Shown here: piece after piece, positions 16,428 to 22,393 of the stretch
How the letters are laid out: every line of letters starts with the position of its first letter
How positions within the stretch are numbered: the first letter of the stretch is position 1
Origin: a virus
IMG/VR virus record: IMGVR_UViG_3300027659_000232
Span: 1-22,393 of that record
Direction: 5' to 3' (one strand)
DNA: 22,393 nucleotides
The notes under the pieces: model-generated
What the model was told of the DNA's origin: nothing
The model's input: only the letters and a program-made list of their open reading frames with translations
Database searches by the model: none
Position numbers and translations under genes: made by a program

Positions 16428-16457
16428 TTTGAAATTGAATATTTATTTGTATATTTG
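16428..16457 (+). promoter_or_regulatory. Early promoter, Bacteroidetes consensus
   Basis: TTTG (16428-16431), an 18-base spacer, then TATATTTG (16450-16457). This matches the Bacteroidetes sigma consensus TTTG / TAnnTTTG. If the box is centred near -7, transcription starts at about 16461, exactly where the pseudoknot leader begins. It would drive the whole replication operon and use unmodified host polymerase. Confidence 0.75.
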
Positions 16458-16460
16458 CCC

Positions 16461-16575
16461 TGTCGATGTTATTTTACTACTATTATGATTCATAAAGATA
16501 TTTATTGCCCCAATCTCAAAGCCGCCCATCTTAATGGTAAGGACATCGACACTCTCTGCGCTTTGGGTGAGGGGC
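16461..16575 (+). promoter_or_regulatory. Candidate structured 5' leader (pseudoknot), copy 1
   Basis: Four segments interlock. TGTCGATGT (16461-16469) pairs with ACATCGACA (16543-16551), 9 of 9. GCCCCAATCTCAAAGC (16507-16522) pairs with GCTTTGGGTGAGGGGC (16560-16575) as 5 bp, a 3x3 internal loop and 8 bp. The order A-B-A'-B' is a pseudoknot. It lies directly behind the early promoter and 16 bases before the first replication gene. The same topology and a GCCCCAATC core recur at 22260-22364. It could control translation of the downstream gene. A small ORF also runs through it. Confidence 0.6.
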
Positions 16576-16595
16576 TTAATATATATATACAATGA
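16485..16595 (+). CDS. Small leader ORF inside structured leader, copy 1
   Basis: 36 codons plus stop, starting MIHKDIYCPNLKAAHLNGKD. Its TGA overlaps the ATG of the next gene as ATGA. It begins between pseudoknot strands A and B, so a translating ribosome would unfold both helices before reaching the downstream start. The product shows no known domain. The equivalent leader at 22260 has a similarly placed ORF but with the shared GCCCCAATC core in another reading frame, so the peptide may matter less than the act of translation, or the ORF may be fortuitous. Confidence 0.35.
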   Translation: MIHKDIYCPNLKAAHLNGKDIDTLCALGEGLNIYIQ

Positions 16596-17161
16596 AAAAA
16601 TCTTTTATTTTACACCTGGATAGCCTTTTGGTATTATCCGAATTGACAGATGAGCAAGCCGGTATCTTGTTTAAAGCAATCAGTAATTATCACCTTGACA
16701 TTGAAACTGAATTGGATTTTGGTTTGAAGATGGCCTTTTTGCCATTCAAAAATCAATTCATAAGAGATAGGGAAAAGTATCTTAATGAATCCGAAAGAAA
16801 CAGTTTAAACGGAAAAAAGGGAGGCCGCCCAAAGAAAGCAACTAAAAGCCAAAAAACCCAAGTGGTTTTAGAGAAAGCGAAAAAAGGCGATAGTGATAGT
16901 GATAGTGATAATGGTAGTGATAATGATAAAGAAAAAGATAGTGAAAGAATTATATTCATTCCGCCATCTTATGAAGAGGTATGGAAATATTTTTATGATA
17001 ATGGTTACACAGCAGTGGCAGCAAAAAAAGCATTTGACTATTACGATGCAAGTAATTGGGTAGACAGCAGGGGAAACAAAGTGAAGAATTGGAAACAGAA
17101 AATGATTGCTGTGTGGTTTAAGGATGAGAATAAAAAAGAGGAAAGGGGCTTTGTATGTTAA
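16592..17161 (+). CDS. DUF6291-like replication-region protein
   Basis: 189 residues. Residues 1 to about 75 (FILHLDSLLVLSELTDEQAG, then RDREKYLNESERNSLNGKKG) match the DUF6291-type domain of Bacteroidetes phages, ending in a basic GGRPKK hook. A low-complexity linker of Asp-Ser repeats follows at about 100-115. The C-terminal part (PSYEEVWKYFYDNGY, then NWVDSRGNKVKNWKQKM) is a separate small domain common in phage replication-region proteins. The position immediately before the primase-helicase suggests a replication organiser or helicase-loading role, but this is inference. The stop overlaps the primase start by 7 bases. Confidence 0.75.
   Translation: MKKSFILHLDSLLVLSELTDEQAGILFKAISNYHLDIETELDFGLKMAFLPFKNQFIRDREKYLNESERNSLNGKKGGRPKKATKSQKTQVVLEKAKKGDSDSDSDNGSDNDKEKDSERIIFIPPSYEEVWKYFYDNGYTAVAAKKAFDYYDASNWVDSRGNKVKNWKQKMIAVWFKDENKKEERGFVC
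16889..16927 (+). repeat. Short tandem repeat encoding Asp-Ser linker
   Basis: GATAGT occurs three times in tandem (16889-16906), followed by degenerate GATAAT, GGTAGT, GATAAT units. The repeat stays in frame and encodes an acidic flexible linker between the two domains of the gene. A 6-base unit changes linker length without breaking the frame. Confidence 0.8.
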
Positions 17162-22245: not shown

Positions 22246-22254
22246 TTATATTTG
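22224..22254 (+). promoter_or_regulatory. Promoter of the third early unit
   Basis: A perfect TATATTTG box (22247-22254) is preceded by TTG at 22224-22226 (20-base spacer) or TTTG at 22227-22230 (16 bases). Transcription would start near 22258, just ahead of pseudoknot copy 2. The -33 element lies in the last codons of the previous gene. Confidence 0.65.
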
Positions 22255-22259
22255 CATCA

Positions 22260-22364
22260 CTGCGACACCGATGAAATCAACTCAACATATATTAGCCCCA
22301 ATCAGGGATTCAAAAAGGCAAGGTGTCGCAGCTTTCAGCCGAGTACGTTTCTTTGTTTGGGGCT
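22260..22364 (+). promoter_or_regulatory. Candidate structured 5' leader (pseudoknot), copy 2
   Basis: CTGCGACACC (22260-22269) pairs perfectly with GGTGTCGCAG (22322-22331). AGCCCCAA (22294-22301) pairs perfectly with TTGGGGCT (22357-22364). CAGGG (22303-22307) can add five pairs with CTTTG (22351-22355), two of them G-U. The order is again A-B-A'-B', and the leader begins at the predicted transcription start. It sits before the gene starting at 22384. It shares GCCCCAATC and the overall layout with copy 1, while the outer helix sequence differs with compensating changes. Confidence 0.6.
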
Positions 22365-22387
22365 TCCCTTTAATACTAAAAAAATGA
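22271..22387 (+). CDS. Small leader ORF inside structured leader, copy 2
   Basis: 38 codons plus stop, beginning MKSTQHILAPIRDSKRQG. The start lies one base after the GCGACACC motif and the TGA overlaps the next ATG. The product is basic and matches nothing I know. As in copy 1, the ORF crosses both pseudoknot helices, so it could be a translated leader that opens the structure, or a chance reading frame. Confidence 0.3.
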   Translation: MKSTQHILAPIRDSKRQGVAAFSRVRFFVWGFPLILKK

Positions 22388-22393
22388 AAACAA
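22384..22393 (+). CDS. Start of next early gene (cut by window end)
   Basis: Only ATG AAA ACA and one further base are present. The ATG is in an A-rich context 19 bases after the last pseudoknot strand, equivalent to the position of the gene at 16592. The product cannot be stated. Confidence 0.5.

Follow-up and report, generated by a model that had tools for sequence, protein, structure and literature searches.

At two places in the window, the 22,393-bp IMG/VR virus record analyzed here over its whole length, a promoter box is followed by a stretch whose transcript could fold into an interlocked structure directly ahead of a gene. Do these stretches encode a structured leader RNA, and what would such a leader do? 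The Bacteroidetes −7 box TATATTTG is present at 16450..16457 (+) for copy 1 and at 22247..22254 (+) for copy 2. Because the TAnnTTTG box of Flavobacterium lies at positions −12 to −5 relative to the transcription start site (PMC9723704), +1 is predicted at about 16462 and about 22259, respectively.

In copy 1, the 5′ strand of helix A (16461..16470 (+)) pairs with its 3′ strand A′ (16542..16551 (+)) through ten pairs, 9/9 between 16461-16469 and 16543-16551 plus a U.G pair between 16470 and 16542. Helix B joins 16507..16522 (+) to B′ at 16560..16575 (+). It has 13 of 16 positions paired, arranged as 5 bp (lower part, 16507-16511), a 3x3 internal loop, and 8 bp (upper part, 16515-16522). A small hairpin, P3 (CCAU/AUGG), occupies 16526..16537 (+), with strands 16526-16529/16534-16537. 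In copy 2, helix A is formed by 22260..22269 (+) and 22322..22331 (+) with 10/10 pairs. The strands of its helix B, assigned from the sequence and a comparison of orthologues, are 22295..22303 (+) and 22355..22363 (+); 22295-22301 pairs with 22357-22363 over 7 bp (7/7), followed by U.U and C-G. When the sequence was shuffled with its dinucleotide composition preserved and A fixed in its 5′ position, interlocked pairing as strong as that of copy 1 arose in 1/4000 cases and as strong as that of copy 2 in 0/4000.

Orthologues of copy 1 show that the pairing has been maintained. L003 is almost identical to copy 1, and L004 and L005 are 80% and 79% identical to it. Helix A is paired in 4/4 orthologues with both-sided changes at three pairs, helix B is 100% paired with such changes at three pairs, and P3 is paired in 87.5% of cells with one such change; all seven are seen in L004 and L005. 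Overall, 98.1% of the cells in the alignment are paired, compared with 87.8% after shuffling and at most 52% when the strands are slid. The covariation score is 0.370 versus 0.162 for shuffled alignments (0/500). The sequence GCCCCAATC in helix B is replaced by GCTCCAAAC in copy 1 orthologues and B′ changes to match, which indicates that what is maintained is the structure and not the core sequence. The orthologues of copy 2 have a mean identity of 94%, and A/A′ is unchanged in all four. The original prediction, made from sequence alone, had placed the four strands in this interlocked order at both copies with 9/9 and 10/10 pairs in helix A, and both of these points held. Its proposal that GCCCCAATC is a conserved core shared by the copies failed. 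Its claim of compensatory change across the two copies needs correction: the decisive changes lie between orthologues, and the two copies are too diverged to align. It had missed P3 and, in both copies, a leader ORF that overlaps the next gene as ATGA.

These leader ORFs overlap the helices, and it could be argued that the pairing is a matter of chance or a by-product of coding sequence. This explanation is all but excluded, and as far as sequence goes it is already refuted. The shuffles and the compensatory changes in all helices speak against it, the reading frame relative to GCCCCAATC differs between the copies, and the length of the ORF is not conserved.

To what extent does the structure occur outside the window? 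A blastn search of cultured phages with copy 1 and with one type I leader (defined below) found no match, so motif and structure searches were needed. A pattern based on GCCCCAATC matched L003 only. Patterns resembling copy 1 or copy 2 gave one further distinct copy 2 orthologue (L253), the remainder being chance matches or known copies. A descriptor scan for the box followed by interlocked A and B, applied at loci with a related primase-helicase, gave similar leaders, and motif scans of IMG/VR then yielded those that we call type I. At least 16 distinct type I leaders are present in IMG/VR phage contigs outside the window. Their order is the box, 4 nt, A (10-12 bp, from +1), AUGAAAACAUUNAAAAAU, B, UUACAYUGCC, P3, A′, CUUUGU, B′, a U-rich stretch, and the gene ATG, which lies at about +114 to +130 as counted from the box.

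Pairing in type I was counted with the strands at fixed offsets from these motifs and not fitted, so that they are anchored independently of pairing. Helix A has 167/176 positions paired (the best of 10,000 permutations reached 141; 0/10000) and helix B has 102/112 (best permutation 94; 0/10000). An alignment of the whole type I set made with MAFFT (A1) shifts helix A by one column where the lengths of A differ, and these anchored counts were used in its place. In alignment A2, 89.3% of cells are paired, both-sided changes occur at 15 of 21 pairs, and the covariation score is 0.448, compared with 0.191 for shuffled alignments and 0.150 for the best slide. P3 covaries in type I as well. A covariance model built on helices A and P3 (R1) detects further copies, and the contigs G003, G006, G008, and G016 each have at least two.

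Two other forms were found. Type II leaders (L007-L011) have a longer helix B. In type III, A sits in the loop of a 5′ hairpin, which gives a kissing-loop form, and a run of U follows B′. Type III includes L078, L080, L127, L130, the cultured Flavobacterium phages filifjonk, morran, and mumin, and the Cellulophaga phages phi10:1 and phi19:1. The leader of Muminvirus filifjonk, a phage grown on Flavobacterium sp. LMO9, is that of NC_048831 13861. In the cultured Flavobacterium (Muminvirus, Lillamyvirus) and Cellulophaga phages these leaders precede replication operons, and compensatory changes are present there too: A pairs as GTGAGACG/CGTCTCAC in filifjonk, GTGAGAAG/CTTCTCAC in morran, GTGGAACG/CGTTCCAC in mumin, and GTACGAC/GTCGTAC in phi10:1 and phi19:1. 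Over seven leaders, helix A has 56/56 positions paired versus at most 43 with mismatched partners. The strands were listed by hand, and this control is weaker than the permutation used for type I. A separate conserved element close to AGTTATCGGTAATCTTAAAACCG, a GGT...ACC hairpin, lies behind the U-stretch of type III leaders and ahead of the gene ATG (L104:13984, L226:10350, L230:362, L228:307, L078:7147, L080:294). A stretch resembling it is found 5′ of an ATG in the crAss-like phage cr55_1, possibly L231:501-548, where no type III leader was seen.

The common fold is an imperfect hairpin B, often extended upward, that encloses P3 and A′; A′ pairs with the 5′ end to make an H-type pseudoknot. 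Sequence comparison thus shows that the predicted transcripts carry, at their very 5′ end, a pseudoknot that covaries and whose B′ lies near the first gene. The 3′ strand of B ends between a few and about 30 nt 5′ of that gene in the window copies and in types I and II. We consider it nearly certain that these structures form one family of promoter-proximal leader RNAs in Bacteroidetes phages, mainly of the Flavobacteriia type. The host-genome scans produced no convincing copy, which suggests that the leader is mainly a phage element. Among 84,980 genomes of bacteria and archaea, a pattern scan returned 28 stretches, none of them a convincing leader. R1, run with stricter filters that lose weak matches, gave one weak match in 399 Flavobacteriaceae genomes; the pseudoknot was not found there and the ORFs do not appear phage-like.

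Membership of an Rfam family requires a covariance-model score at or above the gathering threshold. Rfam 15 had no matches in the window, and copy 1 had none at E<=5, with the caveat that models without pseudoknots might miss the fold. The type I leader L098 gave only sub-threshold, unrelated matches. No description of the leader RNA was found in the open-access full text searched; a subscription paper could have been missed. The family appears to be a so far undescribed phage leader RNA.

In type I and both window copies, given the published promoter spacing, helix A starts at the predicted +1 or within 1 nt of it. This might suggest a 5′-end shield, in which knotted pairing of the first nucleotides guards early phage mRNAs from 5′-dependent decay. 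We find this unlikely. A simple 5′ hairpin would suffice for such a role, and a helix B next to the gene, P3, and an AUG inside the leader would remain unexplained.

This AUG lies between A and B in all 26 leaders checked, and a start codon has that place in type I, type II, and both window copies. In copy 1 it opens an ORF of 36 aa (16485..16595 (+)) whose TGA overlaps the ATG of the next gene; the ORF in L005 has the same length. In copy 2 the ORF has 38 aa (22271..22387 (+)), its TGA overlaps the ATG at 22384, and it is open in L004, L005, and L253. The ATGA overlap is found in both window copies, in the copy 2 orthologues L004 and L253, and in the copy 1 orthologue L005. Read in frame 0, the leader ORF extends as far as the gene start in 15/26 leaders; the other frames give 2/26 and 9/26. 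This control is biased, as AUGA itself places a stop in frame +1. Because early stops occur in L127, L149, and L162, and an AUG in a useful place is lacking in the type I leader L205 (G016) and in type III leaders, the leader AUG is a common but not an obligatory part.

Is the leader tied to one kind of gene? The first gene of the copy 1 operon (16592..17161 (+)) is of a replication or primosomal type (phrog_15768, with a weak match to the primosomal phrog_6451) and is followed by primase-helicase, RusA, SSB, and HNH genes. Copy 2 precedes a gene start at 22384..22393 (+) that is cut by the contig end and that in L004 encodes an ERF single-strand annealing protein (PF04404, E 1.3e-18). Elsewhere, the leader precedes an HTH_36 replication-type protein (L102) and, judged by sight, a RecT-like protein (L036). 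NUMOD4 is found behind 3/3 type I leaders tested (L098, L097, L149) and HNH behind the type II leader L007. By sight, GIY-YIG-like genes lie behind the L140 and L131 leaders, and HNH-like or GIY-YIG-like genes elsewhere. As leaders precede replication, ERF, RecT-like, and often homing-endonuclease-like genes, we regard them as a reusable operon leader and not a gene-specific switch. The small ORF at window positions 20747-20989 matches PHROG 2044 (E 1.8e-15, 80 aa), labelled RNA polymerase beta subunit, a label that seems doubtful at such a size.

Type I leaders often stand before NUMOD4/HNH-like or GIY-YIG-like genes (L098, L094, L097, L149, L156, L162, L085, L151, L209, L205). The pairing of a type I leader with an endonuclease-like gene, sometimes twice per contig, suggests mobile promoter-leader-endonuclease cassettes as a possibility. 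A stronger version holds that the unit of promoter, leader, and HNH/GIY-YIG gene came first, with the leader limiting endonuclease expression, and was later captured by replication operons. In its favor, endonuclease-like genes lie behind most type I leaders, and G003 and G016 have two such cassettes each. However, the genes behind the window copies, L089, L102, L036, L124, and the type III leaders are not endonuclease-like, and we judge this origin very unlikely. In a separate comparison, L229 (mumin6-1) and L104 (filifjonk) keep the type III leader with a different gene behind it, the junction falling just 3′ of the U-stretch. This may reflect modular exchange at the leader boundary.

The original prediction of a conserved, structured, promoter-proximal RNA on more than one operon is strongly supported by covariation in all helices, many phage homologues, phages with several copies, and the lack of an Rfam match. 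The searches for homologues did find further members, with A/A′ and B/B′ pairing retained. It could not match the leader to a named RNA family, and the Rfam search of the window gave no match either. That the operons are early is inferred from their gene content (replication, ERF). The suggestion that the leader is riboswitch-like has no specific support; because the leader precedes unrelated genes, a general control element appears more apt than a metabolite sensor. A riboswitch was rejected, as there is no conserved ligand pocket before genes of one pathway, the downstream genes are unrelated, and the loop motifs differ between types.

We propose that the leader is a cis-acting, cotranscriptional gate on the expression of the first gene or genes of the operon. 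Of the mechanisms considered it is the most likely; it is inferred without expression, termination, or probing data, and could as easily prove wrong as right. In the closed fold, helix B and the U-rich stretch would make RNA polymerase pause or stop, block the A/U-rich zone where ribosomes land on the gene, or do both. RNAfold, which draws no pseudoknots, favored helix B plus inner extensions in each of the six leaders given to it, so B-P3-B′ could fold as a hairpin by itself and A/A′ would then lock it. A ribosome that binds at the leader AUG would sit over A and the first part of B and displace both, opening the gate. In the window, the leader ORF would also couple translation to the gene through the ATGA overlap. 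The gate is supported by the covariation of all helices, the position of helix A at +1/+2, the contigs with several type I copies, the AUG in 26/26 leaders, the frame 0 excess of ORFs that reach the gene, the ATGA overlaps, and the U-rich tail behind B′ in types I and III. As the same fold precedes unrelated genes, it is not tied to one product. In Flavobacterium, translation initiation depends on mRNA structure near the start codon and not on Shine-Dalgarno pairing (PMC6847099). Against the gate, the leader ORF varies in length and ends early in some leaders, a usefully placed AUG is missing from others, the frame comparison is biased, and the U stretch of the window copies is weak.

A U-rich stretch usually follows B′. 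It is seen in types I and III, with the form U(A)UUUUU in type I, and the window copies have only a weak one (CUUAAUAUAU, CUUCCCUUUA), which makes termination doubtful there. We infer that the tails of types I and III favor an action on transcription, and that the weak tails and ATGA overlaps of the window favor translation. A pure transcriptional attenuator would treat helix B and the U-stretch as an intrinsic terminator, its loop held by the 5′ end, with a phage or host factor deciding readthrough. The U run after B′ in type III (L078, L080, L130, Muminvirus) and the U(A)UUUUU of type I agree with this. So do two other phage leaders (L156, minus strand from 3684; L105:9882) in which a plain 5′ hairpin is followed, immediately ahead of the gene, by a separate hairpin of ordinary terminator-like form with a U-run. 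Against it, an A interrupts the type I U-run, which can also pair with an A-rich stretch before B, the window copies have no U-run, and a terminator scan of the + strand of the window region was empty, although its 8-nt loop limit makes it blind to this structure. We consider the pure attenuator unlikely.

The main rival to the gate is a put-like antiterminator, in which the nascent pseudoknot would stay on RNA polymerase and allow readthrough of pauses and terminators along the early operon, as putL and putR of phage HK022 do. This remains possible. The leader starts at +1, is reused on several operons per phage, and is independent of the gene behind it. The HK022 elements are likewise phage-encoded, cis-acting, promoter-proximal structured RNAs of two early operons with a paired 5′ end, the pairing of putL beginning at A3 (PMC9378689). 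However, put is about 70 nt long with two consecutive stem-loops, stem I having a triplex, and a pseudoknot is not mentioned in that work. The leader has 110-140 nt, interlocked helices, an AUG, and a gene start directly behind it, and belongs to a different phylum. Many leaders have a U-rich, terminator-like end and the internal AUG, neither of which put needs, and the terminator scan found no terminators to overcome on the + strand of the window operon. Of the features that define put, the promoter-proximal position on early operons is met, with "early" inferred from gene content, and the two consecutive stem-loops of about 70 nt are not. As this defining feature failed, the leader cannot be called put.

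The repY-repZ leader of the IncI-alpha plasmid ColIb-P9 and its IncB/IncL-M relatives (cited in PMC10724649) offer a second comparison. In repY-repZ, an antisense RNA controls the pseudoknot, whose effect is to activate translation. There, a leader ORF ends at a replication gene start; here, both window copies have such an overlap and the ORF gets as far as the gene in 15/26 leaders, with early stops in several others. There, as here, a long-range pseudoknot connects the 5′ leader to the region before the gene. However, many phage leaders have no coupled ORF or precede genes other than replication genes. The leader thus resembles put in position and reuse and repYZ in its pseudoknot and leader ORF, and cannot be called either. 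The T4 gene 32 leader is a phage 5′ H-type pseudoknot that controls a gene of DNA metabolism through gene-specific autoregulation by gp32, whereas here one fold precedes many unrelated genes. HDV-like ribozymes have the strand order P1-P2-P3-P1′-P2′, which matches A-B-P3-A′-B′. This identity was rejected: P1 would have 9-12 bp and start with U (copy 1) or C (copy 2) rather than G, the A-B linker is long, there is no Rfam match, and a catalytic core was not identified.

A bolder reading is that early mRNAs of many Bacteroidetes phages as a standard begin, at +1, with a widespread and modular pseudoknot leader. It would be a general RNA-encoded switch, whether antiterminator or ribosome-opened gate, that phages and homing endonucleases plug before any gene. 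On balance we lean slightly against it. Little has been described of how Bacteroidetes phages control early transcription and translation in hosts that have unusual promoters and do without Shine-Dalgarno sequences. A pseudoknot leader that covaries and is reused ahead of genes for replication, recombination, and endonucleases offers a concrete handle on this control. Because it also occurs in cultured Flavobacterium and Cellulophaga phages, its function can be tested immediately, and RNA databases can take up the family. As a minor observation, GCGACACC, the core of copy 2 strand A, reappears at codons 4-6 of the ERF gene (L004:13265-13420). A chance recurrence is conceivable; it is also possible that A′ of copy 2 pairs instead with the start of the ERF gene.
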